Source: Formosa sp. Hel1_31_208 (GTDB lineage Bacteria; Bacteroidota; Bacteroidia; Flavobacteriales; Flavobacteriaceae). Taken from it: a stretch of 64,000 nucleotides of DNA. Positions 30,352-55,858 of the stretch are shown here, in pieces. Each line of letters opens with the position of its first letter. Position 1 is the first letter of the stretch. The position numbers and the translations under genes are program-made. The stretch spans positions 1,582,501 through 1,646,500 of the forward strand of contig NZ_LT629733.1 in assembly GCF_900104785.1 (NCBI RefSeq), in the 5' to 3' direction. The notes below the pieces were generated by a model that searched no databases, had not been told where the DNA came from, and saw only the letters and a list, made by a program, of their open reading frames with translations.

Positions 30352-31047
30352 TTAAATATTATTTAAAGCATCAACAAGTTGGGTTTTCTTATTTCTACTT
30401 AGTGGAATCTCATAAGCACCAACTTCAACGTTTTTACTATTAAATCGGTCTACCTTATCTAGGTTGACAATATATGATTTGTGGATTCTCAAGAATTTAC
30501 CTTCCGGTAATTCCTGCTCAAAGGCTTTCATTGTAGATAAAACGACTAAGCTGTTTTCTTCGGTTACCAGTTTTACGTAGTCACCAAGTGCTTCAATCCA
30601 TTTAATATCCTTAATGTAAACTTTTCGTTTCTTTAGATTACTTTTAACGAAAATGTGTTCACCATCAGTTTCATTAAAATCGAGCTTTAATTTATGTTGT
30701 TCTAACGCCTTTTCAACAGATTGATTAAATCTTTCCCTAGTGATAGGTTTTTGAAGGTAGTCGGTTGCATCATAATTAAAAGCTTTAAATGCGTATTCAG
30801 TTTTACCTGTAACGAAAATAATTTGGGGTTTGTTGTTGAGTACATCAAGCAATTCGAAACCGTTAAGAACGGGCATCTCAATATCTAAGAAGATAAGATC
30901 TACTTTATGAGTGTTAAGTCCATTTTTGGTTTCTAATGCGCTGCTGTATTCTGCAATAAGGTTAAGTGAGGAATGATTCTCAATTAACTTTACAATTGAT
31001 AATCGTTGAATCGCAGAATCATCAACTACTACACAGTTTAAAGTCAT
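30352..31047 (-). CDS. LytTR-family response regulator (REC plus LytTR)
   Basis: This 231-residue regulator has an N-terminal receiver domain with D9/D10, phospho-acceptor D55 (FLDIEMPVLNG) and K100. The C-terminal LytTR DNA-binding domain (about 130-231) shows IFVKSNLKKRKVYIKDIKWIEALGDYVKL and FLRIHKSYIVNLDKVDRF. LytTR proteins bind pairs of direct repeats spaced by about two helical turns. No LytS-type histidine kinase gene is adjacent, so it is an orphan here. The start at 31047 is chosen because the upstream extension is hydrophobic and not part of the receiver fold. Confidence 0.95.
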   Translation of the reverse strand: MTLNCVVVDDSAIQRLSIVKLIENHSSLNLIAEYSSALETKNGLNTHKVDLIFLDIEMPVLNGFELLDVLNNKPQIIFVTGKTEYAFKAFNYDATDYLQKPITRERFNQSVEKALEQHKLKLDFNETDGEHIFVKSNLKKRKVYIKDIKWIEALGDYVKLVTEENSLVVLSTMKAFEQELPEGKFLRIHKSYIVNLDKVDRFNSKNVEVGAYEIPLSRNKKTQLVDALNNI

Positions 31048-31183
31048 AACATTATTATATTTTAGGTTAAGATATCGACAATAGTACAAAAAATTCGGAT
31101 AAAAACCAAAAAACATCGGTAAAGTGTTTTATTTAACAATATTTTAAGAAAAAATTAACAGATTAATTTTAATCAACAAATAT

Positions 31184-36675: not shown

Positions 36676-39600
36676 TTACTTCACTAAAACTTTTTTAGAT
36701 AACAAACCGCTTAAAGTATCTATCTTAATAATATAAGTTCCAGTGCTAAGGTTCTTAACTTCATATTCAGAATAGTCCAGTTCTGAAATATCTTCAATTG
36801 TTGTAATTTTTTGTCCAATGATGTTATAGAGTTCAATAGATTTTACATCTACGAAATTCGGGTTGAATAATACAATACCTTGTACTTCGTTGTCATAATA
36901 TACATCCACTGATTTTAGAATACTCTCTTCAACATTCAACGCAGCTTCACTACTAAATGTCAATTCAAATCGATCTAAGTATTCACCAGCCGAAAGGTAG
37001 AATTGGAAATCACCTTCTCTTAGGTTATGATAGGTATCCTCTAACAAATCGTGAATATAGATCTCAATATCGTTAGGCACATTTTCTAAACTATCAATAG
37101 TAATAGTATTTAATCCATCATCACTTGTTTTAATACCAAGAGGATACACACTATCTGATTCAGCTTCGTTACTACCTTGAATCGTATATTTTTCACTATC
37201 TATCATCCAGAATAAATCATCCATCTGATCATCATAGGTCTTAGCGTCAAACGCCCAGTCATATCCAGTTGTTGTTGCGTCATCAATCGTTAATAATAGC
37301 TGTCTATGAATTGTATTTATAGAATTAAATCCAATTCTAAATTTCATACGATCATCGATGTCATCTTGAGGGTCAGCGCTTGCCGTCGATCCGTCAGATC
37401 TCACAAATACAGATGTTCCAGTGGATTCTTTTCTGTAGATACGTTGGCCGTTATTAAAGTTGATATTTCCTGTGCTTTCTCCTACAACGAAGAAACCTTG
37501 ACTTACAGGAATATATCTTGCTGGCAGCTTAGTAGGTGTTCCACCGGTTCCTACATCAGGATCATTTGTTCCTAATGATGGTGCAGCAACTCCTCCTGAG
37601 AAGTTATATGTTGCATAGCCACCTTGGTAGTCTAGTAAAACATGAGATCCTCCGCCCCAGTGTTCCCAGAAATAAAGCGTTCCACTAATTAATGGATCAG
37701 CACCTGCACCAGTAATGTTTGGTCCGTTATCTGTAATAAAGGTATTTGCATCTATCGCAGAAGGATAAGGGTTACCAACTAAATAGTCGTTCCCTGCATT
37801 AAGGGTTAGGTTAATGTCGCCATTATTTGGTTTTCCTAAGAAAACATAGTTTTGTTGATCAACGATGGTTCCAGAACCAGGCCCCTTCATGGTGAAACCT
37901 TCACCAGCTAAAAGTGTTCCGTTCTGTCTAACATGTTGCCATGCAGAATAATCATCATCGGGTTGATTTGCAAATTTCCATATCCAGTAATCAGCTATAG
38001 TAATTGGCGAACTTGCCGAACCATCATAATCATTATTAATAAAGTTGATTGGTAAAGCATCATCCAACATGACATCTACAACTGTATATGAATTATTATT
38101 TGTTGTGTTGTTAATAACACCCACTGGTGAAGACCAGTAGTTATAAGTGTGAACATCAGCTGTTCCTTGTTGATCTTTTTCTAGAGATCCAGATGAAGTA
38201 GGATCTAAGTCACTTCCAACTTCTTGTATCAATTGCGACTGACCCTCTAAATCTATTTTTCCGTCAAGTTTTAGATAGTGAGAAATGGTTAAACCGTTTC
38301 CAGCAGTGGCATCAAAATTATTACCATCAACTGTTAATTCACCAGCATCTACATATAAACCTAATACTTGTCTGTCTCTTCCTAATACGATTTCAGTATC
38401 GACTCTTACATCATGACCAATCCTAACAATGTTCCAGTCGATAGGAGTTGTTCCGTCTACTATGGATAGTTCATTTGGAATAGATTGCACGGTGTTATTT
38501 AACCAAGTAGCATCTGTTGTCCAATCGCCATTTGCTTGAGATTCATATGGTAATGGAGCTGTTTGTCTGTCTACTGTATCTAAATTTCTTAACGCACCTT
38601 GATTTGAGTTTCCAGAGGCGTCATCTGTATTGGTATAAGTATAAATTGACATTGGATAATAGCCAGCCAAATCAGACCATGGGATAGTTCCTATATCATT
38701 TTTAGTGATAGTAGAAGGTAAAACTCTACCTGCCACAAATGATGTATTATCTTCTATTTCTTGATTCATAATGAATCTTAACTGAGCTATACTAAGTTCT
38801 GTATCCCATACTCGTACTTCATCAATATTTCCTCTAAAGTGCTGTGTTGGTGTGTTTTTACCAGCCGCCGCAATGTAGAAGGATTCATTTGTGTCTGAAG
38901 GTGCTGAGCGATTGGCTTGATTGTCTACGACTCCATCAATGTATAAAAACAGTCTTGTGCCATTATAAATGGCAGCCACATGATGCCATTCGTCATCTGG
39001 AATAGCTGCAGTACTCGTTAATATTTGATCTGAACCGTTTTTCCAGAACATTTGTATTCTATTATCATTTAGTATTCTTAGATCATATCCAATTGTAAAC
39101 GGATTATCTCTTTTTGAGATAATGGATTTCGTTCCACTATCGGCAGCATCTCTTTTTACCCAAGCAGATACAGTAAATTCTGTTGGGTTAAGATCTAATG
39201 CATCTTCCATGTCAACATAGTCGACAGCTCCGTCAAAGTATACTGAACGTTCTACAATGACTTGAGGAGCATATCCAAAAGTTATGAATTTAGTTCCATC
39301 AAAATCATAATTCGTTTCAAGGTTACCACTTCCATCTGGTGTCATTATTCTATAGTCTGCTGTAGGATCAAAAACACCAGTATTAGAAATAAACATTAAA
39401 TAGCTTCCAGGAGGCGTAATATTTCTAATAGCATCTTGTGGAATTCTAACTTTTACAGAAGGTATATCGCCACCTGTTTCAACAACTTTCCAAACGCGTT
39501 GCATTCCTGTGAATGTAACGTCAGTGTTAAGGGCAGGAGTAATACCTGCACTCATATTCACAGAGATAGTAGTTGCTGCTAGATTTAGGTCTACACCATT

Positions 39601-42600
39601 GTTTCCCCAAACCAGATACTCTTTGTCATCAAAAGTTGTAGGGTCAGTAGAAATATGATCTCTATTGGTGTTATAGATGTCGTTTAATCCCATGGTTAGG
39701 ATACCTTCAATTCTTCCGGTTCCATCGGTTGCATCGTTCACACTTCGAGATTGTTTTTGATTTAATTCTGAAACATCATCTCTTCCAATACCAGCAATAT
39801 CATAGTTAAATCCAGCATTTGCAGATTGATCCCAAATGACATTTCCATCACTATTTACATAGTCTTGTGAAGTGCCATTGACACCAAGCGTAATACCATA
39901 TTTTATTCCTAAATAAGATTGAATTCTGTTATGTTCTTGGGTTAAGTTTATATCAGATTTTCTTGAGCTGTAAGTAATCACTTCGGCTATACGACCATCA
40001 AAACTACCATTCCAATATTGGCTACGTCCTAACCAATATTTTCCATTATTAATCATTTTATATAAAGGAAGGTCATTAGTTTCTGTTCCAACTTGATTGG
40101 CGTTGAAGTATAACTCCATATCAGTGTCAGTAGCGTTTTGTCTAATATTGACAATATGGATTTGGTTATAATCTGTTCCTGTACTTGTGTCTGCTCTACC
40201 ATAACCGTTTTCAGGAGAAGTAGGTGTTGTTTCGTTTGTAGTTGCTATGCAATACGCAAGTCTTTCATTATTAAATCTTGCGGTGTAAGCACCATATCCA
40301 AATCCAGTAACATCTTCAGTATAGGTTTCACCCGCTGGATCCCTGCTTGTAAATGTATCTAAAGGAATCATGGATGTATTAATTGTAGGGTCTGGCATTA
40401 GCACAACAAACATGTCATTGGTATTAAAACCACCTGTTCCTTTGAGTGTTTTTCTGCTACCGTCGTTTATGACATAGGTCATGTCACGATTGGCAGTTGT
40501 ATTATCATTTTCAAATTCTATAACGGGATTGAAGTTAAAGTTTCTTGTCGAGTTGTTTTGATATACTGGCTCTTGTCCAGTCACAACAACTTCTGCATTA
40601 TTACCTTTACCATTGTCGGCCCATTGACTTACTAATCCACCGTCAGCACCATATGAAATACCATCCAACTGATCAGCTTTTAACCAAAGGTCAAGGTCTG
40701 TTGTAATACCTCCAGGTGCTACAGTTGGTGTACAAAATGAGGTTCCTGTTATTCTTATATCATCAATATATACTCTATCATCATCTGCACTGGCATCGCA
40801 ACGCACTCTAAATCGTCCGTTAAGACCAGCAGGGAAGGTGTAGTCTGTACTAAATATTGTAACGGTTTTACTGTAACCAATTGCAGTTCCTGTCGCTTCG
40901 AAATCAGCCGTTTTGTTAGCGACAACGCCACTTAAAAAAGTACCAACAACGGTCCAATTTGTTCCTCCATCACTACTATATTCAATAAAAAAGTCTTCAC
41001 CTGTCTCCATACTTTGTGGCTTAAAGAAGAATTTAAAATCTACTTTATCATAGCTCGAAATGTCGAACAAAGGAGAAAGAAAAGAAGACGCATTACCAGT
41101 AGCGTCATCATCTCTAATTCGCAAACTAAAATTACCGTTATATGCCCATGTTCCATCGTTAAATCTTTCGGCATCCACACCACCTGATGTCCAGCCATCT
41201 AGTCCACTTTCAAAAGTAGCACTATGTAAAATATTAGTACCACAAGGGGGTGGTACAAATCCTGTTCCTTGTATATTAAAGTTATAAGGGTTTTCGTCGA
41301 CATCGCTATTTGCTATTGTCACTGTTGCTGAACGTATACCTAAAGCACTTGGGTCAAAAGTAATACTGAAAGTTGTACTTCCACTAGCAACAATAGGAGA
41401 GGTAGGAATGGCTGTTAATGAGAAATCAGCTGCATGGGCACCACCTATGGTTACGTAAGGTGAACCTCCAGTTAATAATAAATCTAAAGAACCATCATTA
41501 AATATGGTAAATACATTAACATTAGTTCCACCAGCAATATCTACGTTACCAAAATCAGTATCATCTGAAAAATCAGGAGTAACATCGCCATCTACAATAG
41601 TATTGGAATTTCCTTGTACGTTGATTTCAGGGGCAGGAATAAATCCGTTACCTTGAATATCAAAAGTATATGGATTTTCATTACTGTCATTATTTGCAAT
41701 GGTTACTGAAGCCGAACGCAAACCAGTAGCACTTGGATCAAATGTAATATCAAACGTAGTCGTAGTTCCCGCACCTATAGAATTAGATGGAATAGCCGTG
41801 ACTGTAAAGTCTGCGGCATGTAATCCCGATATATTAACATAAGGGGACGCACCTCCAAGAGTTAGTGGTGAGGTACCTGTATTTTGAATTGTAAATGTAT
41901 TCGTTTGTGTTGCAGCGATAAGATTGACATTTCCAAAATCTGTATCATCTGAAATATCAGGTGTAGTATCTCCGTCAACTATATTTACTCCGTTTCCTTG
42001 AATATTTATTTCAGGTCCAGAAGCTAAGGTCGCTGTCATTGATACATTGTCAATTGCCATATCACTTCTGTAGTTAGAAGAAGTTTGACCTCTGAATCTC
42101 AATTTAACCGTTAGTCCTAAATAGGCACTAAGATTAAGATTTACTTGATTCCATGCTTGTCCGGAACTTGTTTGAACTCGACCTAATTGAGACCAAAGTA
42201 CTGTTGGCCAAGTGGCTCCGCCATCTGTACTTATATCAACGTATAAATCACCCATTCCGGTGGTAGTACTACTATACATATGATAATAGAAGGTGAATTG
42301 AGCAGCGGTCGCTGAAGTTAAATCAAAGCAAGGGCTGTTTAAATTATGAGTTTGGTTGTAATTTGGGTTACTTCCTTCAGTATACATATATCTGGTGCCT
42401 TCAAATGGACCAGAAGGTCCTGTGTTTCCAGATGGTGTACCTCCTGCTTGTCTTCTCCAATCATTTTGATCACCAGAATCTTGAGTCCAAAGCCCAAGAT
42501 CTGTATTGAATCCTTCTGAGTATGGAAATGTTGATACTGTTGCACCACAAGAAGCCGCACAACCTCCTGACACGTTAAAAAATATTGGTCCTGTTCCTAC

Positions 42601-42969
42601 AGCCGTAGCTGCATTACCATTTTGATTTAACACAATTGAACTACCAGAGGTAATAGTAATATTATCTGCGCCATCCCATCCATCATTGCCTATATCATAT
42701 ATAATGATATAGTAATTGCTTCCATCTGGAAGACAACCTAAAGCGACTGTATTATAATAGAAATTGTTAGTACCACCTGTATATCCATTATCTATAGTTG
42801 CAATTAGGGTGCCACCTGGATTATAAACCTCAACTCTGTTCTCTGAAGAGAAAGTAGGCCATACAAGTGAGACATCAACGCTAGACGTTTGGGCAAACAA
42901 AAAATTAGTGGTAAAAAGTATACAAAAAATTAATGCATACTTTCTAAGTGAAAGTGTAGAAGTTTTCAT
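36676..42969 (-). CDS. Giant multidomain surface protein with LamG and T9SS type A sorting domain
   Basis: This 2097-residue exported protein begins with a signal peptide (1-27). Next come a beta-rich module (about 28-140) and a MAM-like jelly roll opened by STFPYSEGFN (about 145-315). Two choice-of-anchor D domains follow (about 320-445 and 450-570, with TFDITFDPSATGLRSASVTI), then a second jelly roll (about 575-725), a region opened by LWLKADQLDG (about 735-1100), and a LamG/concanavalin-like domain (about 1240-1400, FTVSAWVKR and EWHHVAAIYNG). A long C-terminal part ends in a T9SS sorting domain (about 2015-2097, ending KKVLVK). The modules bind carbohydrate or protein ligands, so an adhesin role is likely. 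It has its own strong promoter. Confidence 0.92.
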   Translation of the reverse strand: MKTSTLSLRKYALIFCILFTTNFLFAQTSSVDVSLVWPTFSSENRVEVYNPGGTLIATIDNGYTGGTNNFYYNTVALGCLPDGSNYYIIIYDIGNDGWDGADNITITSGSSIVLNQNGNAATAVGTGPIFFNVSGGCAASCGATVSTFPYSEGFNTDLGLWTQDSGDQNDWRRQAGGTPSGNTGPSGPFEGTRYMYTEGSNPNYNQTHNLNSPCFDLTSATAAQFTFYYHMYSSTTTGMGDLYVDISTDGGATWPTVLWSQLGRVQTSSGQAWNQVNLNLSAYLGLTVKLRFRGQTSSNYRSDMAIDNVSMTATLASGPEINIQGNGVNIVDGDTTPDISDDTDFGNVNLIAATQTNTFTIQNTGTSPLTLGGASPYVNISGLHAADFTVTAIPSNSIGAGTTTTFDITFDPSATGLRSASVTIANNDSNENPYTFDIQGNGFIPAPEINVQGNSNTIVDGDVTPDFSDDTDFGNVDIAGGTNVNVFTIFNDGSLDLLLTGGSPYVTIGGAHAADFSLTAIPTSPIVASGSTTFSITFDPSALGIRSATVTIANSDVDENPYNFNIQGTGFVPPPCGTNILHSATFESGLDGWTSGGVDAERFNDGTWAYNGNFSLRIRDDDATGNASSFLSPLFDISSYDKVDFKFFFKPQSMETGEDFFIEYSSDGGTNWTVVGTFLSGVVANKTADFEATGTAIGYSKTVTIFSTDYTFPAGLNGRFRVRCDASADDDRVYIDDIRITGTSFCTPTVAPGGITTDLDLWLKADQLDGISYGADGGLVSQWADNGKGNNAEVVVTGQEPVYQNNSTRNFNFNPVIEFENDNTTANRDMTYVINDGSRKTLKGTGGFNTNDMFVVLMPDPTINTSMIPLDTFTSRDPAGETYTEDVTGFGYGAYTARFNNERLAYCIATTNETTPTSPENGYGRADTSTGTDYNQIHIVNIRQNATDTDMELYFNANQVGTETNDLPLYKMINNGKYWLGRSQYWNGSFDGRIAEVITYSSRKSDINLTQEHNRIQSYLGIKYGITLGVNGTSQDYVNSDGNVIWDQSANAGFNYDIAGIGRDDVSELNQKQSRSVNDATDGTGRIEGILTMGLNDIYNTNRDHISTDPTTFDDKEYLVWGNNGVDLNLAATTISVNMSAGITPALNTDVTFTGMQRVWKVVETGGDIPSVKVRIPQDAIRNITPPGSYLMFISNTGVFDPTADYRIMTPDGSGNLETNYDFDGTKFITFGYAPQVIVERSVYFDGAVDYVDMEDALDLNPTEFTVSAWVKRDAADSGTKSIISKRDNPFTIGYDLRILNDNRIQMFWKNGSDQILTSTAAIPDDEWHHVAAIYNGTRLFLYIDGVVDNQANRSAPSDTNESFYIAAAGKNTPTQHFRGNIDEVRVWDTELSIAQLRFIMNQEIEDNTSFVAGRVLPSTITKNDIGTIPWSDLAGYYPMSIYTYTNTDDASGNSNQGALRNLDTVDRQTAPLPYESQANGDWTTDATWLNNTVQSIPNELSIVDGTTPIDWNIVRIGHDVRVDTEIVLGRDRQVLGLYVDAGELTVDGNNFDATAGNGLTISHYLKLDGKIDLEGQSQLIQEVGSDLDPTSSGSLEKDQQGTADVHTYNYWSSPVGVINNTTNNNSYTVVDVMLDDALPINFINNDYDGSASSPITIADYWIWKFANQPDDDYSAWQHVRQNGTLLAGEGFTMKGPGSGTIVDQQNYVFLGKPNNGDINLTLNAGNDYLVGNPYPSAIDANTFITDNGPNITGAGADPLISGTLYFWEHWGGGSHVLLDYQGGYATYNFSGGVAAPSLGTNDPDVGTGGTPTKLPARYIPVSQGFFVVGESTGNINFNNGQRIYRKESTGTSVFVRSDGSTASADPQDDIDDRMKFRIGFNSINTIHRQLLLTIDDATTTGYDWAFDAKTYDDQMDDLFWMIDSEKYTIQGSNEAESDSVYPLGIKTSDDGLNTITIDSLENVPNDIEIYIHDLLEDTYHNLREGDFQFYLSAGEYLDRFELTFSSEAALNVEESILKSVDVYYDNEVQGIVLFNPNFVDVKSIELYNIIGQKITTIEDISELDYSEYEVKNLSTGTYIIKIDTLSGLLSKKVLVK

Positions 42970-43010
42970 AAGCGGTTAAATTTTAGTTTGGGACTAATAA
43001 ATTTATGATA

Positions 43011-43042
43011 CAAATCTACATTTATACTCTATGAAATGCAAA
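43011..43042 (-). promoter_or_regulatory. Promoter of the 2097-residue T9SS gene
   Basis: On the minus strand TTTG (43039-43042), a 20-base spacer and TAGATTTG (43011-43018) match the Bacteroidota promoter consensus. The predicted leader is roughly 35-40 nucleotides. Confidence 0.75.
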
Positions 43043-43060
43043 TAAAATCGATGAAATGCA
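43031..43060 (-). promoter_or_regulatory. Paired 10-mer operator-like repeats upstream of the 2097-residue gene
   Basis: ATGAAATGCA occurs at 43031-43040 and again, identically, at 43051-43060, giving a 20-base period. The proximal copy overlaps the -33 element. A similar pair with the same period stands before the 4178-residue gene. The layout resembles LytTR-type binding sites; the binder is inferred. Confidence 0.55.
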
Positions 43061-43219: not shown

Positions 43220-46200
43220 CTAGAATTTAATCAACTTTTTGATGACTTCAATTCCGCTTGTTGTATTTGATATTTTAATAAAATACGGAGCTTCTTCTAG
43301 TCTGTCAAGATCATTAATGATTATTGAACCTTCAATACTTGATTTTGTCTTTTTATAAACAACACGTCCATTTAAGTCATAGATGTTTATATTAAAAGCA
43401 CTACCATTCAAGCTTAAGGGCAAGGTGATCTTTATAGACGTATTAAATGGATTAGGTTGAATAGTTATGTCCCTATTAGTTACTTCTCCTATACTTAGTG
43501 TTTCTTCTGTCACTGTTACTATAGCTGTGCAATCAGAACTATTTCCATTTGAATCTGTAACCGTTAATGTTACACTGTTAGTCCCTAAATTACTTGTTGT
43601 GAAACTTGAAGGAGAAACACTAATACTAGCGATTGAACAATTATCTGAAGATCCATTGTCTATTTGGTCTGGAGTAATAGTAGCGTTTCCAGTGCCATCT
43701 AGTTCAATTGAGATATCTTGAGTTGCGCAAATCGGTGCAATCACATCATTAATAATTACATTCTGATTTTGTGTAACTGTATTACCATTTCCATCATCAT
43801 AGGTCCATATTACTACAGTAGTACTAGTTATAGGTAGTGTAGCATTATTAGTTACAATAACAGTACCACTGCAGTTATCTATAGCTGTTGGAGACGTTAA
43901 ACTGGTTACTTCACATTCTGCTGAGATATCAGTTAGGTTAATTACATTAGGAGTAGGCGCAGTGGTATCTTCTAAGGTAATGATTTGCACAGAAGAAGCT
44001 GTGTTAGTTGCATTATCAGTAGCTGTCCAAGTACGTGTTATTGTGTTACCAGCAGTGACATCAGAGAATGTTACAGCAGGTGCAGCATCACAGTTATCAG
44101 TTGCCGTAGCCGCTCCAGTATTTGTAGGATCAGTAGAGGCATCACATTCAATAGTGATATCCGCTACATCTGTAATACTAGGCGCAGTGGTATCTTCTAA
44201 GGTAATGATTTGCACAGAAGAAGCTGTGTTAGTTGCATTATCAGTAGCTGTCCAAGTACGTGTTATTGTGTTACCAGCAGTGACATCAGAGAATGTTACA
44301 GCAGGTGCAGCATCACAGTTATCAGTTGCCGTAGCCGCTCCAGTATTTGTAGGATCGGTAGAGGCATCACATTCAATAGTGATATCCGCTACATCTGTAA
44401 TACTAGGCGCAGTGGTATCTTCTAAGGTAATGATTTGCACAGAAGAAGCTGTGTTAGTTGCATTATCAGTAGCTGTCCAAGTACGTGTTATTGTGTTACC
44501 AGCAGTGACATCAGAGAATGTTACAGCAGGTGCAGCATCACAGTTATCAGTTGCCGTAGCCGCTCCAGTATTTGTAGGATCAGTAGAGGCATCACATTCA
44601 ATAGTGATATCCGCTACATCTGTAATACTAGGCGCAGTGGTATCTTCTAAGGTAATGATTTGCACAGAAGAAGCTGTGTTAGTTGCATTATCAGTAGCTG
44701 TCCAAGTACGTGTTATTGTGTTACCAGCAGTGACATCAGAGAATGTTACAGCAGGTGCAGCATCACAGTTATCAGTTGCCGTAGCCGCTCCAGTATTTGT
44801 AGGATCGGTAGAGGCATCACATTCAATAGTGATATCCGCTACATCTGTAATACTAGGCGCAGTGGTATCTTCTAAGGTAATGATTTGCACAGAAGAAGCT
44901 GTGTTAGTTGCATTATCAGTAGCTGTCCAAGTACGTGTTATTGTGTTACCAGCAGTGACATCTGAGAATGTTACAGCAGGTGCAGCATCACAGTTATCAG
45001 TTGCCGTAGCCGCTCCAGTATTTGTAGGATCAGTAGAGGCATCACATTCAATAGTGATATCTGCTACATCTGTAATACTAGGCGCAGTGGTATCTTCTAA
45101 GGTAATGATTTGCACAGAAGAAGCTGTGTTAGTTGCATTATCAGTAGCTGTCCAAGTACGTGTTATTGTGTTACCAGCAGTGACATCAGAGAATGTTACA
45201 GCAGGTGCAGCATCACAGTTATCAGTTGCCGTAGCCGCTCCAGTATTTGTAGGATCAGTAGAGGCATCACATTCAATAGTGATATCTGCTACATCTGTAA
45301 TACTAGGCGCAGTGGTATCTTCTAAGGTAATGATTTGCACAGAAGAAGCTGTGTTAGTTGCATTATCAGTAGCTGTCCAAGTACGTGTTATTGTGTTACC
45401 AGCGGTGACATCAGAGAATGTTACAGCAGGTGCAGCATCACAGTTATCAGTTGCCGTAGCCGCTCCAGTATTTGTAGGATCAGTAGAGGCATCACATTCA
45501 ATAGTGATATCTGCTACATCTGTAATACTAGGTGCAGTGGTATCTTCTAAGGTAATGATTTGCACAGAAGAAGCTGTGTTAGTTGCATTATCAGTAGCTG
45601 TCCAAGTACGTGTTATTGTGTTACCAGCAGTGACATCAGAGAATGTTACAGCAGGTGCAGCATCACAGTTATCAGTTGCCGTAGCCGCTCCAGTATTTGT
45701 AGGATCAGTAGAGGCATCACATTCAATAGTGATATCCGCTACATCTGTAATACTAGGCGCAGTGGTATCTTCTAAGGTAATGATTTGCACAGAAGAAGCT
45801 GTGTTAGTTGCATTATCAGTAGCTGTCCAAGTACGTGTTATTGTGTTACCAGCGGTGACATCAGAGAATGTTACAGCAGGTGCAGCATCACAGTTATCAG
45901 TTGCCGTAGCCGCTCCAGTATTTGTAGGATCAGTAGAGGCATCACATTCAATAGTGATATCTGCTACATCTGTAATACTAGGCGCAGTGGTATCTTCTAA
46001 GGTAATGATTTGCACAGAAGAAGCTGTGTTAGTTGCATTATCAGTAGCTGTCCAAGTACGTGTTATTGTGTTACCAGCGGTGACATCAGAGAATGTTACA
46101 GCAGGTGCAGCATCACAGTTATCAGTTGCCGTAGCCGCTCCAGTATTTGTAGGATCAGTAGAGGCATCACATTCAATAGTGATATCTGCTACATCTGCAA

Positions 46201-49200
46201 TACTAGGCGCAGTGGTATCTTCTAAGGTAATGATTTGCACAGAAGAAGCTGTGTTAGTTGCATTATCAGTAGCTGTCCAAGTACGTGTTATTGTGTTACC
46301 AGCAGTGACATCTGAGAATGTTACAGCAGGTGCAGCATCACAGTTATCAGTTGCCGTAGCCGCTCCAGTATTTGTAGGATCAGTAGAGGCATCACATTCA
46401 ATAGTGATATCCGCTACATCTGTAATACTAGGCGCAGTGGTATCTTCTAAGGTAATGATTTGCACAGAAGAAGCTGTGTTAGTTGCATTATCAGTAGCTG
46501 TCCAAGTACGTGTTATTGTGTTACCAGCGGTGACATCTGAGAATGTTACAGCAGGTGCAGCATCACAGTTATCAGTTGCCGTAGCCGCTCCAGTATTTGT
46601 AGGATCAGTAGAGGCATCACATTCAATAGTGATATCTGCTACATCTGTAATACTAGGCGCAGTGGTATCTTCTAAGGTAATGATTTGCACAGAAGAAGCT
46701 GTGTTAGTTGCATTATCAGTAGCTGTCCAAGTACGTGTTATTGTGTTACCAGCAGTGACATCTGAGAATGTTACAGCAGGTGCAGCATCACAGTTATCAG
46801 TTGCCGTAGCCGCTCCAGTATTTGTAGGATCAGTAGAGGCATCACATTCAATAGTGATATCTGCTACATCTGTAATACTAGGCGCAGTGGTATCTTCTAA
46901 GGTAATGATTTGCACAGAAGAAGCTGTGTTAGTTGCATTATCAGTAGCTGTCCAAGTACGTGTTATTGTGTTACCAGCGGTGACATCAGAGAATGTTACA
47001 GCAGGTGCAGCATCACAGTTATCAGTTGCCGTAGCCGCTCCAGTATTTGTAGGATCAGTAGAGGCATCACATTCAATAGTGATATCTGCTACATCTGTAA
47101 TACTAGGCGCAGTGGTATCTTCTAAGGTAATGATTTGCACAGAAGAAGCTGTGTTAGTTGCATTATCAGTAGCTGTCCAAGTACGTGTTATTGTGTTACC
47201 AGCGGTGACATCAGAGAATGTTACAGCAGGTGCAGCATCACAGTTATCAGTTGCCGTAGCCGCTCCAGTATTTGTAGGATCAGTAGAGGCATCACATTCA
47301 ATAGTGATATCTGCTACATCTGTAATACTAGGCGCAGTGGTATCTTCTAAGGTAATGATTTGCACAGAAGAAGCTGTGTTAGTTGCATTATCAGTAGCTG
47401 TCCAAGTACGTGTTATTGTGTTACCAGCAGTGACATCAGAGAATGTTACAGCAGGTGCAGCATCACAGTTATCAGTTGCCGTAGCCGCTCCAGTATTTGT
47501 AGGATCAGTAGAGGCATCACATTCAATAGTGATATCTGCTACATCTGTAATACTAGGCGCAGTGGTATCTTCTAAGGTAATGATTTGCACAGAAGAAGCT
47601 GTGTTAGTTGCATTATCAGTAGCTGTCCAAGTACGTGTTATTGTGTTACCAGCAGTGACATCTGAGAATGTTACAGCAGGTGCAGCATCACAGTTATCAG
47701 TTGCCGTAGCCGCTCCAGTATTTGTAGGATCAGTAGAGGCATCACATTCAATAGTGATATCTGCTACATCTGTAATACTAGGCGCAGTGGTATCTTCTAA
47801 GGTAATGATTTGCACAGAAGAAGCTGTGTTAGTTGCATTATCAGTAGCTGTCCAAGTACGTGTTATTGTGTTACCAGCAGTGACATCAGAGAATGTTACA
47901 GCAGGTGCAGCATCACAGTTATCAGTTGCCGTAGCCGCTCCAGTATTTGTAGGATCAGTAGAGGCATCACATTCAATAGTGATATCTGCTACATCTGTAA
48001 TACTAGGCGCAGTGGTATCTTCTAAGGTAATGATTTGCACAGAAGAAGCTGTGTTAGTTGCATTATCAGTAGCTGTCCAAGTACGTGTTATTGTGTTACC
48101 AGCGGTGACATCAGAGAATGTTACAGCAGGTGCAGCATCACAGTTATCAGTTGCCGTAGCCGCTCCAGTATTTGTAGGATCAGTAGAGGCATCACATTCA
48201 ATAGTGATATCTGCTACATCTGTAATACTAGGTGCAGTGGTATCTTCTAAGGTAATGATTTGCACAGAAGAAGCTGTGTTAGTTGCATTATCAGTAGCTG
48301 TCCAAGTACGTGTTATTGTGTTACCAGCAGTGACATCAGAGAATGTTACAGCAGGTGCAGCATCACAGTTATCAGTTGCCGTAGCCGCTCCAGTATTTGT
48401 AGGATCAGTAGAGGCATCACATTCAATAGTGATATCCGCTACATCTGTAATACTAGGCGCAGTGGTATCTTCTAAGGTAATGATTTGCACAGAAGAAGCT
48501 GTGTTAGTTGCATTATCAGTAGCTGTCCAAGTACGTGTTATTGTGTTACCAGCGGTGACATCAGAGAATGTTACAGCAGGTGCAGCATCACAGTTATCAG
48601 TTGCCGTAGCCGCTCCAGTATTTGTAGGATCAGTAGAGGCATCACATTCAATAGTGATATCTGCTACATCTGTAATACTAGGCGCAGTGGTATCTTCTAA
48701 GGTAATGATTTGCACAGAAGAAGCTGTGTTAGTTGCATTATCAGTAGCTGTCCAAGTACGTGTTATTGTGTTACCAGCGGTGACATCAGAGAATGTTACA
48801 GCAGGTGCAGCATCACAGTTATCAGTTGCCGTAGCCGCTCCAGTATTTGTAGGATCAGTAGAGGCATCACATTCAATAGTGATATCTGCTACATCTGCAA
48901 TACTAGGCGCTTGATTATCTAAAACAGTTATAACTATTGGGCAAGGAGTTGCAGGGTTAAAGCCATCATCTGTAGTCCATACAACAGTGGTTTCACCAAT
49001 CGGAAATGGATCATTTATCCCAAGGCCTATTTCTTCATCGCCATTACTATCAAATCGTGTAGCAGTGAATGTAAAACTTGTTGCGCAATTATCTGTAGCA
49101 CTAGGCTGAGGAACAGTTACTGTGGCAGAACATAGTCCAGAATCAATATTTACTGTTATGTTATTTCCGCAATTTATAACTGGCGCAGTGGTATCTTCTA

Positions 49201-52200
49201 AGGTAATGATTTGCACAGAAGAAGCTGTGTTAGTTGCATTATCAGTAGCTGTCCAAGTACGTGTTATTGTGTTACCAGCGGTGACATCTGAGAATGTTAC
49301 AGCAGGTGCAGCATCACAGTTATCAGTTGCCGTAGCCGCTCCAGTATTTGTAGGATCAGTAGAGGCATCACATTCAATAGTGATATCTGCTACATCTGTA
49401 ATACTAGGCGCAGTGGTATCTTCTAAGGTAATGATTTGCACAGAAGAAGCTGTGTTAGTTGCATTATCAGTAGCTGTCCAAGTACGTGTTATTGTGTTAC
49501 CAGCAGTGACATCAGAGAATGTTACAGCAGGTGCAGCATCACAGTTATCAGTTGCCGTAGCCGCTCCAGTATTTGTAGGATCAGTAGAGGCATCACATTC
49601 AATAGTGATATCCGCTACATCTGTAATACTAGGCGCAGTGGTATCTTCTAAGGTAATGATTTGCACAGAAGAAGCTGTGTTAGTTGCATTATCAGTAGCT
49701 GTCCAAGTACGTGTTATTGTGTTACCAGCAGTGACATCAGAGAATGTTACAGCAGGTGCAGCATCACAGTTATCAGTTGCCGTAGCCGCTCCAGTATTTG
49801 TAGGATCAGTAGAGGCATCACATTCAATAGTGATATCTGCTACATCTGTAATACTAGGCGCAGTGGTATCTTCTAAGGTAATGATTTGCACAGAAGAAGC
49901 TGTGTTAGTTGCATTATCAGTAGCTGTCCAAGTACGTGTTATTGTGTTACCAGCGGTGACATCAGAGAATGTTACAGCAGGTGCAGCATCACAGTTATCA
50001 GTTGCCGTAGCCGCTCCAGTATTTGTAGGATCAGTAGAGGCATCACATTCAATAGTGATATCTGCTACATCTGTAATACTAGGTGCAGTGGTATCTTCTA
50101 AGGTAATGATTTGCACAGAAGAAGCTGTGTTAGTTGCATTATCAGTAGCTGTCCAAGTACGTGTTATTGTGTTACCAGCAGTGACATCAGAGAATGTTAC
50201 AGCAGGTGCAGCATCACAGTTATCAGTTGCCGTAGCCGCTCCAGTATTTGTAGGATCAGTAGAGGCATCACATTCAATAGTGATATCCGCTACATCTGTA
50301 ATACTAGGCGCAGTGGTATCTTCTAAGGTAATGATTTGCACAGAAGAAGCTGTGTTAGTTGCATTATCAGTAGCTGTCCAAGTACGTGTTATTGTGTTAC
50401 CAGCGGTGACATCAGAGAATGTTACAGCAGGTGCAGCATCACAGTTATCAGTTGCCGTAGCCGCTCCAGTATTTGTAGGATCAGTAGAGGCATCACATTC
50501 AATAGTGATATCTGCTACATCTGTAATACTAGGCGCAGTGGTATCTTCTAAGGTAATGATTTGCACAGAAGAAGCTGTGTTAGTTGCATTATCAGTAGCT
50601 GTCCAAGTACGTGTTATTGTGTTACCAGCGGTGACATCAGAGAATGTTACAGCAGGTGCAGCATCACAGTTATCAGTTGCCGTAGCCGCTCCAGTATTTG
50701 TAGGATCAGTAGAGGCATCACATTCAATAGTGATATCTGCTACATCTGCAATACTAGGCGCTTGATTATCTAAAACAGTTATAACTATTGGGCAAGGAGT
50801 TGCAGGGTTAAAGCCATCATCTGTAGTCCATACAACAGTGGTTTCACCAATCGGAAATGGATCATTTATCCCAAGGCCTATTTCTTCATCGCCATTACTA
50901 TCAAATCGTGTAGCAGTGAATGTAAAACTTGTTGCGCAATTATCTGTAGCACTAGGCTGAGGAACAGTTACTGTGGCAGAACATAGTCCAGAATCAATAT
51001 TTACTGTTATGTTATTTCCACAATTTATAACTGGTGCAGTGGTATCTTCTAAGGTAATGATTTGCACAGAAGAAGCCGTGTTAGTTGCATTATCAGTAGC
51101 TGTCCAAGTACGTGTTATTGTGTTACCAGCAGTGACATCAGAGAATGTTACAGCAGGTGCAGCATCACAGTTATCAGTTGCCGTAGCCGCTCCAGTATTT
51201 GTAGGATCAGTAGAGGCATCACATTCAATAGTGATATCCGCTACATCTGTAATACTAGGTGCTTGATTATCTAAAACAGTTATAACTATTGGGCAAGGAG
51301 TTGCAGGGTTAAAGCCATCATCTGTAGTCCATACAACAGTGGTTTCACCAATCGGAAATGGATCATTTATCCCAAGGCCTATTTCTTCATCGCCATTACT
51401 ATCAAATCGTGTAGCAGTGAATGTAAAACTTGTTGCGCAATTATCTGTAGCACTAGGCTGAGGAACAGTTACTGTGGCAGAACATAGTCCAGAATCAATA
51501 TTTACTGTTATGTTATTTCCACAATTTATAACTGGTGCAGTGGTATCTTCTAAGGTAATGATTTGCACAGAAGAAGCCGTGTTAGTTGCATTATCAGTAG
51601 CTGTCCAAGTACGTGTTATTGTGTTACCAGCAGTGACATCTGAGAATGTAACAGCAGGTGCAGCATCACAGTTATCAGTTGCCGTAGCCGCTCCAGTATT
51701 TGTAGGATCAGTAGAGGCATCACATTCAATAGTGATATCCGCTACATCTGTAATACTAGGCGCAGTGGTATCTTCTATAGTGACAACAGCAACACATGTA
51801 TCAGTGTTTCCACTGGTGTCCGTTACTGTTAAAGTCACGTTGTTTGTTCCAATGTTTAAACATGTAAAACTAGTTTGCGATGCTGATATTGAAGCTACAC
51901 CACAATTATCGGAGGAGCCATTATTAATTTGCGACGCTGTAATTGAAATATTACCACCATTATCTAATTGTACCGTTATATTTTGGCATACAGCTATAGG
52001 ATCTTGATTATCAACAACAACATTTACATTAAATGAAGCCGTATTAATATTACCTGAGTCATCGGTTACTGAGTAGCTAATTATGGTCGTTCCATTAGGA
52101 AAAATATCGCCACTATTAAGTCCAGTACCATCTGTTCTGGTTACTGTTAGTGTTGTATCACAATTGTCGGTGGCTGTAGGATCTGTCCATGTAGGTTGAT

Positions 52201-55200
52201 TATTTCCACAGGTTAATGAAATGTTACCAGGTACATTTACGAATTCTGGATCGACCTGATCTTGAACTGTAACTGTAGCGATACATATATCTGTTTGATT
52301 GTCTATGTCGGTTACTGTTAAAGTCACATCTACTGGTGTGCCGATGTTAGTACAATCAAATGTATTGATATCAATACTGAAATTAGTAATGGCAACATCA
52401 TCTGTTGATCCACCGTCTACATCAGTTGCAACAATTGTTGCATTTCCAGTATTATCAAGTTGAACAGTAATATTTTGACATACCGCAGTTGGTGGCGCTG
52501 AGCCTGTTATTTCATCTGAGGTGATGCTAAAATTGTCAATTGATATATCTCCTTGCCAACCAGTGCCAGCATCTGAGCTAGTAACAGCAGTAAATCTAAG
52601 TTTAATGATTGAATTGTCATAAGCGCTTAAATCAACATTTTGTGTTTTCCATGGATCTGTATGACCCGTATTTTGTTGACCAGATAGGGTGTAAGCATTT
52701 AATGGACTATAATTTGCGCCATTGTCTAAACTTACCTCGACGAACAAATCACCTGTAAATCCGCCAAACATATGATAGTCAAATGCAAGCGCAGCATTTT
52801 CTCTACCGCTAAAATCAAGACACGGACTTAAAAGTCGGGCAGTTTTAGTTGGGAAATTTGGATTTGAGGCTTCAATGAATAGAAAGTAGCTTCCGTCAGC
52901 GGCGAGAGAAGGACCTGTGTTAGCTGAAGGTGTTGAGTTTCCGTCACCTTCTTCTATTTTATTGGTCCAATTAAAATCATCACCAGTATCGTTTGTCCAT
53001 AGACCGAAAGTGTTTTCAAAGCTTTCAGAATAAGGGAATGTACTTATGGCAGTTCCTGTACAAGGAACCGTCGCTAATGTTGTGAAATTTTCAATAGTTG
53101 AATAAGATGAAGTTGATGTTGCACATCGTGTTCTTACCTGAACATCGTAATCGGTTAATGGGCTTAATCCTGATATTTGATATGAATTTGTAGGAATATC
53201 GGTAATTGTAGTCCATGCTCCAGCACCAGAACCAGTTACTCTATATCTGATATCATAGGTAGCAGAGGGAACTTCATCCCAATCTACTTGTGCTGTGATT
53301 GATGTAATATTGGTGATGCCAATATTAGTTGGTGTAGTGGTTAGACATGGGATTTGCACACTAATAATTTTAAAATCATCAATAAAAAATCCATCATTTG
53401 TTGTGGTATAATTTTCATTAACATTGAGTGCATCTGTTCTAAATCTGAATCGGATTCTAACATCATTTGAGCTAAGTAAGGATGCGTAGGTATTGTCAAT
53501 AACAATTTCTTCCATTACCCAATTATCCATGCGGTCTCCATCGTAAATTTGTCCGGAACTATTCGCTTGGAAGTTTGCATAGGTTCCACTTTTGTTATCA
53601 TGACCTGTTGTAGAACTTGTTGCATTAGGCTTGGTGTAATTACCACATAGTGATATCCAGCTAGAACCTCCGTCTGGAGACCCTAAGATTTCTACAAAGT
53701 CATAATTTCTTTCAATATCCCATTTCGAATAAAATTGAATAAGCACTTCATTAGAATTTGAGAAATCATAAGAATTTGTTGTTGTTAATGTTTTTGTTGC
53801 ATTAGTAGAATAGGTCCCTGTACTCAAGGCATCGGTTCCTGAATAGGCATCAGATGACGTATTGTTCCATCCACCAACTTGCGTCCAACCAGTTAATCCA
53901 GTGGCATCAGGATCATGATCAAATAAAAGGGTTGGTTGGTAGTACTTCTCATAATTTGCTTCATAAATGACACCATCATCATTTGATAAGGTCACATTGT
54001 ATTCTATCTTTTCATTAGCAGTTATTGCCGGATTTAACTGCATTGTAGCTGTTACGGTACGTTGGTTTTGATTTGAAGGAATCGTTGTTGTTTGAATTGG
54101 AATTCCTGATTCAGTAGGCGGTGAACTAATACTTACAATATTTGAAGATATTGGTGTTACCGTTACAGTAAAGTCACTAGGAGTTTGTCCGATACGTTCT
54201 ATACCGAAATCTAAATCCACATTGGATGTTGTTGAGATATTACTTTGTGTCAAGTCGTGCAGTTTCGCATATTTCCCTCCGTAATATGCGGTTCCTAAGG
54301 AAATACGCATGGATTGCTTGGCGATAGGAACAATCGTAGAAGGGGTAGGCCAGAATCCTTGTCCGCCATGTTCTGGAGTTGTAGCAATAATACCTTGACC
54401 AGAACCTGTGGAACCATTATTGTCTGGGGCACCACCCATCATCCAATCATCAGGCAAACCATTAGATTCATAAAAAATTGTGGCTCCATATAGATAACGA
54501 TTATATCTTGTCATTTCTTCATGCCATCTGTAGTATTCATCCTCACGATCTGTGGCTTGAGTAGGTATACCTCCATATGGGTGGGGAACGGAGTTGGCAT
54601 AAGAGTGGTTCCAAACACCTGATTTAATAGACCTGCTTGTAATGAAATCAACCATAATTTGTGTCTCCGGTTCAGACTCAGGAGCTGGTCCTCTATAATT
54701 AGATGCAGTTTGGGTTCCTGAAGAACCTATATTATTGAATCCCCAGAAATAATCAAAATTCCTATTTAAATCTACTCCTCTATTTGTTCCTGTTCCTCCT
54801 GTATTTGGTCTTAGATTTTTACGTTGTAAACCACCACCACTAGGAGCAATAGTTTCATTCCAACGTAATCCATCAGGATTGACAACAGGAACGAAATACA
54901 ATTCATTATTATCTACTAATTCTTGAATTGCAGGATCTGTATCATAGTTTTCTATGATGTACCACATGAAGTAGATGTTGTTCATTAATGCACTAACTTC
55001 TCTAGAGTGAATCATAGAAGTAAATAGCATTTGTGGTTTTGAACCTTCAGGTGCCGTACTTTGATTACCTGTAATTCTAACATACCAAATAGTCTCAGGA
55101 TCCCATCGTGTAGAACCTACACCTGAATAGGTAGCAGGACCATTATTTTGTTGGTTTACAAAATTGTTTGTAGGATTACCCCAAGTTTTTTGACCTGTAG

Positions 55201-55756: not shown

Positions 55757-55828
55757 TAGTTTGGGGTTTAATGATTTTTTATCGATTAATTAGGGTGCTA
55801 AGATATTACTTTATTTCAATTTCACTCC

Positions 55829-55858
55829 ATAAAACGCAAAAAAAACCGATGAAATGCA
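55829..55858 (-). promoter_or_regulatory. Paired 10-mer operator-like repeats upstream of the 4178-residue gene
   Basis: ATAAAACGCA (55829-55838) and ATGAAATGCA (55849-55858) have a 20-base period, exactly as upstream of the 2097-residue gene. The flanking sequence is also alike, so a block of about 35 bases resembles the one at 43026-43060. The proximal copy lies 73 bases from the start codon. No perfect -7 box is seen. Confidence 0.5.

Follow-up and report, generated by a model that had tools for sequence, protein, structure and literature searches.

A LytTR-type direct repeat at the promoters of giant T9SS genes in Formosa sp. Hel1_31_208, and its association with a candidate LytTR regulator and a putative sRNA family in Flavobacteriaceae

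Flavobacteriaceae are major degraders in marine and soil environments, and to our knowledge little is known about how the surface proteins exported by their T9SS are controlled. The stretch of DNA analysed here (64,000 nucleotides, hereafter "the window") encodes two giant proteins of this kind, and at the promoter of one of them a 10-mer occurs twice. Is this repeat a regulatory site, which protein could bind it, and what else, in this genome and in its relatives, lies behind it? The features on which the answer rests are the following:

30352..31047, minus strand: orphan LytTR response regulator, proposed activator (from Pfam domains, co-occurrence and a conserved start)
31096..31128, minus strand: degenerate pair of boxes preceding the LytTR gene, matched by 6 of 1000 shuffles
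36676..42969, minus strand: 2097-aa secreted protein with MAM, LamG and Ig-like domains and a T9SS C-terminal domain (first giant)
42967..42995, minus strand: 5' leader element AGTCCCAAACTAAAATTTAACCGCTTATG of the first giant, two blocks complementary to the 5' half of the sRNA, start codon included
43011..43018, minus strand: -7 promoter box TAGATTTG, beginning 12 nt past the 30-nt site; 20 nt separate it from the upstream TTTG, which is part of the proximal box
43028..43060, minus strand: direct-repeat site of LytTR type before the gene of the 2097-aa T9SS protein; its boxes, with period 20, are TGCATTTCATCGA (43060-43048) and TGCATTTCATAGA (43040-43028)
43220..55756, minus strand: 4178-aa T9SS cargo with M14 peptidase, fn3 and HYR-type repeats and a sorting domain above the Pfam cut-off (second giant)
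55757..55766, minus strand: leader element CCCCAAACTA, abutting the start codon, with a 7-nt complement to a G-rich segment of the sRNA
55798..55805, minus strand: -7 box-like TATCTTAG, beginning 23 nt past the site
55826..55858, minus strand: second LytTR-type site TGCATTTCATCGGTTTTTTTTGCGTTTTATGGA, period 20

The spaced repeat and what lies behind it

A sequence-only reading of the window had reported that the 10-mer occurs twice with a gap of 10 bases, and that the proximal copy covers the -33 box. Both statements are correct: ATGAAATGCA is found exactly at 43031-43040 and 43051-43060 of the plus strand (gap 10 nt, start-to-start distance 20), and the promoter on the minus strand, which is the strand of the downstream 2097-aa gene, has the form TTTG-N20-TAGATTTG, with the -33 TTTG contributed by the proximal box. 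Read on that strand the repeat is TGCATTTCATCGATTTTATTTGCATTTCAT, i.e. two LytTR-type boxes 20 bp apart, and the end of this site lies 61 nt upstream of the start codon. The T9SS domain of the encoded protein scores slightly below the Pfam cut-off (24.6 bits vs 27).

The related pair that had been noticed before the other giant gene is also present, at 55829-55858 and with the same period of 20; in its paired form the site of the 4178-aa gene is TGCATTTCATCGGTTTTTTTTGCGTTTTAT. The distance from the site to the -7 box is one helical turn longer than in the first giant, and the proximal box does not lie on -33, because the -7 box starts 23 nt after the site. The 4178-aa protein itself (43220-55756) contains dozens of near-identical HYR-type repeats, a sign of recent amplification. 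A further claim, that within the window such a pair is unique to the promoters of the giants, holds in part: strong pairs are found only there, and a degenerate one is present at 31096-31128, before the LytTR gene.

Single near-copies of the 10-mer are at the level expected by chance (10 with at most 1 mismatch vs 11.1 expected), and the distinctive thing is the spaced pair, not the lone 10-mer. The pair pattern searched in the whole genome with up to 3 mismatches gave 3 forward matches; taken alone this looser pattern is not clean, because the reversed control also gives 1. A tighter pattern derived from both sites yielded, again with up to 3 mismatches, exactly 2 matches in the 3.1-Mb genome; both lie in the window, and the reversed control has none. 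No strict site was found elsewhere in the genome beyond the two giants. With at most 1 mismatch the site was detected in 102 of 299 Flavobacteriaceae genomes (reversed control 0), and an exact scan of one genome per species (84,980 species) returned at least 119 stretches. Among the 80 loci listed from this last scan, 77 are titled Bacteroidota, and the rest are Cytobacillus, Massilia and a MAG labelled Algicola. The scans of the genome, of the 299 family genomes and of the 84,980 genomes rule out a chance origin of the repeat, which appears, as judged from its distribution, to be part of a regulatory signal common to the family Flavobacteriaceae.

The logo of 113 sites reads TGCATTTCATCGA, seven A/T-rich bases and TGCATTTCATSGA, and its conservation reflects in part the way the sites were selected, because the search pattern fixed the first 12 bases and the spacing. 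The 113 retain two loci from outside the phylum (L043 from Cytobacillus and L089 from Massilia) and include L069, whose apparent ORF is the sRNA described below; L069 is counted among the 113 logo sites and 113 leaders, and was left out of the later analyses of energies, phasing and boxes. In L021 and L077, inspection by eye showed three or four box-like repeats in a row, with a period of about 20-21 bp, in place of two.

To characterize the genes behind the site, regions were fetched around the first listed site in each of 80 of the 102 genomes. An ATG ORF of at least 20 codons starts at the right distance in 61 of the 80; 48 of these ORFs have at least 60 codons and 42 are complete, and leaving out two complete ORFs opposite a long gene gave 40 genes for analysis. 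The 19 fetched sites without an ORF of this length at the right distance include sRNAs and ambiguous cases. A T9SS sorting domain (E <=0.001) was identified in 21 of the 40 complete downstream genes (type A in 18, type B in 3 others); in a random sample of 120 of the 452 neighbouring genes the figure is at most 7 (4 and 3 for the two types). The remaining 19 downstream genes have no T9SS domain; leucine-rich-repeat proteins account for 5 of the 40. The expectation that the motif is commoner upstream of T9SS genes than elsewhere is borne out, and the idea of a shared regulon of surface proteins, already put forward from the letters of the window, gains support from this enrichment in relatives, on which it mainly depends because the present genome has only two strict sites.

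Several other arrangements were observed behind the site. In Allomuricauda-type loci (L057, L062, L075, L091, L104, L116 and others) a conserved small protein, membrane-like and about 29 aa long (MENYIIVLGMYLILMLFFKIFFSVATKGE), starts some 51 nt past the site, upstream of a gene for 5-formyltetrahydrofolate cyclo-ligase (Pfam). L171 and L172 have another small protein, MEKVIRSFKGTKELVQNVLFIFKKVFLLV, at this place, and the leader of L171 is nearly wholly complementary to the sRNA (-35.6 kcal/mol). In L070 (and, by eye, in L012 and L145) the site lies upstream of an ECF-like protein with sigma-70 region 4, a hint of a regulatory cascade.

In Flavobacterium, the site that lies 3' of a purF-like gene has no gene behind it; what follows is a 73-nt element composed of a stem, an open loop AAGTAGGTTAAGTT, a tail GATTTGGGG and a terminator, with the 5' half CCATAACATAAGTAGGTTAAGTTCATGGTAGATTTGGGGC. 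A covariance model built from 15 copies detected this element (E <=0.001) in 248 of the 299 family genomes, in 11 of the 248 weakly, with one to seven, often tandem, matches per genome. In a 148-genome sample of the order, whose membership in other families is only partly listed, all 17 genomes matching at E 1e-8 belong to Flavobacteriaceae. The present genome has a two-copy array between a purF-like gene (named by eye; Pfam shows a glutamine amidotransferase domain only) and the gene for an iron/manganese superoxide dismutase.

Of 81 typical copies of the element, 60 are preceded by a box pair that outscores 95 of 100 shuffles, as opposed to 14 of 149 control genes (from the first 150 of 446), and 57 of the 60 pairs are found at one position, starting 85-87 nt before the core; in a subclass with another type of promoter boxes were found in 4 of 15 copies only. 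The first copy in the present genome has a clear box pair; at the second no pair exceeds chance, since 45 of 100 shuffles do equally well. A short intergenic element with a promoter, a terminator and an unpaired seed complementary to the leaders of target genes suggests a base-pairing, trans-acting sRNA, which we regard as putative with respect to both its transcription and its control of targets.

We found no match to Rfam 15 at the gathering score for this sRNA in five Flavobacterium loci. Three other identities were considered and rejected: matches to Flavo-1 (RF01705) in L041, L048 and L113 sit elsewhere in those loci, FopS (RF04319) reaches 22.6 bits in the present genome against a cut-off of 56, and what looks like the ORF of a short coding gene in L041, L048, L069 and other loci is in fact the sRNA. 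Flavo-1 occurs in eight copies above the cut-off in the genome G000. A literature search, judged from titles and the openings of abstracts and with most subscription papers outside its coverage, returned no description of either the site or the sRNA.

A candidate LytTR regulator

LytTR sites have been described as two direct repeats of 9-11 nt with 11-13 nt between them (PMC4847170, accessible text); the repeats here are 10 nt long and their gap of 10 nt is one below that range. The 9-nt core GCATTTCAT is identical to the site published for the E. coli LytTR regulator YpdB (PMC4847170, accessible text). Six LytTR proteins are encoded in the present genome, one of them in the window. This protein (30352-31047) comprises a receiver domain (PF00072) and a C-terminal LytTR domain (PF04397), both above the cut-off. 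Its ORF as listed runs to 31116, and the true start is likely 31047, where relatives have a conserved start. Our PDB search with this protein returned mainly receiver domains.

The phylogenetic distribution of the regulator follows that of the site and the sRNA. In 33 genomes picked by hand, all 22 that carry both site and sRNA also have an ortholog, at 91-99% identity in 18 of them and 60-67% in the other 4; none of the 11 genomes that lack the sRNA has one, and there the better-scoring of the best matches reach at most 37%. Across the 299 genomes, with an ortholog threshold of E 1e-58, regulator and sRNA occur together in 224, the regulator alone in 2 (both incomplete), the sRNA alone in 24 and neither in 49; 17 of the 24 sRNA-only genomes are at most 2.2 Mb in size and one is a near-complete genome of 4.4 Mb. 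The ortholog was found in 100 of the 102 site-bearing genomes and the sRNA in all 102, in one weakly. Physical linkage was assessed for 127 sites from 65 genomes with both places listed: 35 sites, from 28 genomes, are no more than 25 kb away from the LytTR gene, where 1.8 would be expected at 3.5 Mb per genome, although these cases are not independent because they mostly represent one conserved neighbourhood, and the counts of co-occurrence and linkage alike are confounded by shared ancestry. The identity of the core with that of the YpdB site, together with co-occurrence and linkage to the gene at 30352, argues for the LytTR recognition that had been suggested for the repeat.

It is rather unlikely, in our opinion, that another regulator, be it a different LytTR protein or one of another fold, binds the site while the LytTR protein of the window merely travels along. 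The co-occurrence comparison covered three of the six LytTR proteins (that of the window, L036 and L037), and in three Flavobacterium loci the site precedes the gene of a different LytTR protein. A protein of the L036 type is, like the window regulator, absent from all 11 sRNA-less genomes examined, yet among the 22 site-bearing genomes examined, 6 also lack a close L036 ortholog and one has a doubtful one (46% identity), while L037-type proteins (50-58% identity) do occur in two sRNA-less genomes. Among the three compared, only the LytTR protein of the window fits both the 22 of 22 and the 0 of 11, and its gene is near many sites. In the three Flavobacterium loci (L084, L107 and L149; LytTR domain shown for L084) the regulator behind the site has a Glu aligned with the usual phospho-acceptor Asp (L149 by eye).

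The preferred regulator, encoded at 30352-31047, may also be subject to its own control. Degenerate boxes precede its gene at one place in six relatives (0 to 11 of 300 shuffles as good), and no such boxes were seen by eye before the gene in 13 relatives of another clade; autoregulation of the LytTR gene through the pair at 31096-31128 is possible. Its leader contains two blocks complementary to the sRNA, CTTAACC and ATGTTATG, in nine fetched relatives and two more. Energies were calculated for 3 leaders of its own type and for 4 of 13 other loci, and pairing with the LytTR mRNA is kept only as a lead, because the energies of single leaders are not exceptional (23 of 446 controls are as good for the gene of the window).

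Other LytTR genes were encountered next to the site. In L050, L060, L092, L096 and L106, inspection by eye revealed a further direct repeat of 21-bp period, GTTGTGAAA or GTTGTGTAA, beside the gene of another LytTR response regulator; this repeat is possibly the site of that adjoining regulator. Autoregulation of the neighbouring LytTR gene through the site studied here was set aside for L050, L060, L092, L096, L097 and L106, in which the site is 3' of that gene.

Promoter phasing and pairing with cargo leaders

In relatives the start codons gather about 60 nt past the site, and the start of a -7 box TAnnTTNG is usually 12-13 or 22-23 nt, and rarely 34-35 nt, past it; no TAnnTTNG box was found 5-45 nt past the site in 38 of 114 promoters. 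The -7 consensus TAnnTTTG and its position are given in the accessible text of PMC9723704. When promoters that were 60% or more alike had been thinned out, 73 remained, and 37 of their 45 box matches are in phase, against a mean of 1.0 and a maximum of 4 in 500 shuffles. The site is a promoter element, and its phasing by whole turns (+12, +23, +34) favours an activator. In the +12/13 class the proximal repeat supplies a TTG at -33 for 39 of 40 promoters, as would suit a repressor that blocks the -33 region; however, the phasing and the lack of this TTG in the +22/23 class (0 of 25 promoters) match the needs of an activator, and a repressor would require no helical phasing at all, so that a repressor site seems improbable.

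The leaders of the genes behind the site share short motifs complementary to the sRNA. CCCAA occurs in 68 of 113 leaders vs 26 of 446 neighbour controls, and in 40 of the 73 thinned promoters; CTTATG at the start codon, which pairs with CATAAG of the sRNA, occurs in 32 of 112 vs 5 of 446. The mean duplex energy is -20.5 kcal/mol for cargo leaders vs -14.5 kcal/mol for controls, and with 20 shuffled sRNAs the gap in the same direction never exceeded 1.24. In an earlier run five shuffled seeds and one reversed seed gave gaps of 1.0-1.7 with low p-values, and the real seed 5.3; composition accounts for part of the energy gap, because the shuffled and reversed seeds also show small differences. 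The leaders are not independent, because 78 of the 113 cargo genes form one single-linkage homology cluster (57 of them with CCCAA); outside it CCCAA is patchy in other clusters and in singletons. Among the 39 genes of the window, CCCAA leaders belong to the two giants only. The first has the lowest sRNA duplex energy of the 39, and the leader of the second pairs weakly overall (-17.3, rank 9). The site would drive, in addition to cargo genes, a family of sRNAs that look able to pair with the mRNAs of surface proteins.

Alternatively, the leader element CCCAAA...TTAACC...CTTATG could be a signal for a protein or for the ribosome, to which the complementarity with the sRNA is secondary; the shortness of these leaders and their conservation between homologs would be in keeping with this. 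We doubt this explanation and give it a low probability: long pairing is also found in dissimilar leaders (L213, L235), the effect is mostly lost with shuffled or reversed sRNAs, and in L180 the complement sits 3' of the stop codon instead. This C-rich complement (L180, 3604-3633, plus strand) lies 30 nt 3' of the stop codon of the cargo gene, before the terminator. Shorter complements to the sRNA, CCTAAATCTAC in L173 and CCAAATCTAC in L200, are found ahead of terminators behind the site. The C-rich complements of these three loci may be further targets or sponges of the sRNA.

A proposed circuit and its closest relatives

We consider it probable that an orphan LytTR regulator co-controls surface cargo and the sRNAs that pair with the start codons of that cargo. 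The site and its phasing, the enrichment of cargo, the sRNA family, the complementarity of the leaders and the co-occurrence come directly from computation, and to these the proposed circuit would add binding by the LytTR protein of the window, activation, transcription of the sRNA and repression by it. The repeat would serve a response regulator of LytTR type as its operator. This regulator, in all likelihood the orphan encoded at 30352-31047, could bind as a dimer to the two TGCATTTCATCGA boxes 20 bp apart and activate the promoter from one face of the helix, with distances to the -7 box that differ by whole turns. Its strict targets in the present genome would be the two giant T9SS surface proteins, with related boxes at the first copy of the two-copy sRNA array and degenerate ones at the regulator itself. 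The sRNAs are predicted to pair with the short cargo leaders from about -30 to the start codon and would most likely block translation of the cargo, resulting in a feed-forward loop of transcription plus sRNA that may limit or delay the output of surface proteins.

A bolder version, which we hold to be nearly as likely as not, makes the LytTR protein of the window a family-wide master switch of the Flavobacteriaceae surface: it would activate T9SS cargo and the sRNA array via the same boxes, and the sRNAs would pair at the start codons of both the cargo messages and the message of their own regulator, so that most genomes of the family would contain an incoherent feed-forward loop with added feedback.

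The layer of sRNA and leaders is new with respect to the sequence-only reading, and is the larger finding. The analysis puts forward a defined site, a nearby gene for its candidate regulator and a widespread family of sRNAs with no match in Rfam, and the proposed circuit would join transcriptional and sRNA control of giant surface proteins.

Several known systems resemble parts of this circuit. FopS of Bacteroides (RF04319) is likewise a family of short sRNAs, present in multiple copies, whose pairing sites are close to the start codons of mRNAs for outer-membrane proteins, whereas its promoters are of the canonical sigma type and its targets are SusC-type mRNAs (PMC11697453, accessible text); as its score given above indicates, it has no sequence match here. 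Rfp18 of Flavobacterium psychrophilum, compared with the present family by description only, is an sRNA conserved in its genus, with predicted targets that include secreted metalloproteases and an adhesin; in a deletion mutant the mRNA of two targets fell, the opposite of simple repression (PMC9723704, accessible text). With respect to the site, the closest system is YpdB/PyrR at the E. coli yhjX promoter, where YpdB binds the direct repeat GGCATTTCAT, which has 9 of 10 bases in common with the box described here; its spacer, however, is 11 nt (period 21) rather than 10 nt (period 20), and its target is of transporter type, unlike the surface cargo and sRNAs found here (PMC4847170, accessible text). 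YpdB and the LytTR protein of the window share 27% identity.

With respect to the architecture, the closest systems are AgrA-RNAIII and VirR-VR-RNA, in which a LytTR regulator drives an sRNA that targets the leaders of surface or secreted proteins. The same order of LytTR regulator, sRNA and surface-protein leaders is inferred for the present case, which differs in that it belongs to another phylum, involves several short paralogous sRNAs, and has a regulator that appears to control the promoters of the cargo directly as well. The comparison suggests that architectures leading from a LytTR regulator via an sRNA to surface-protein mRNAs arose in distant phyla.
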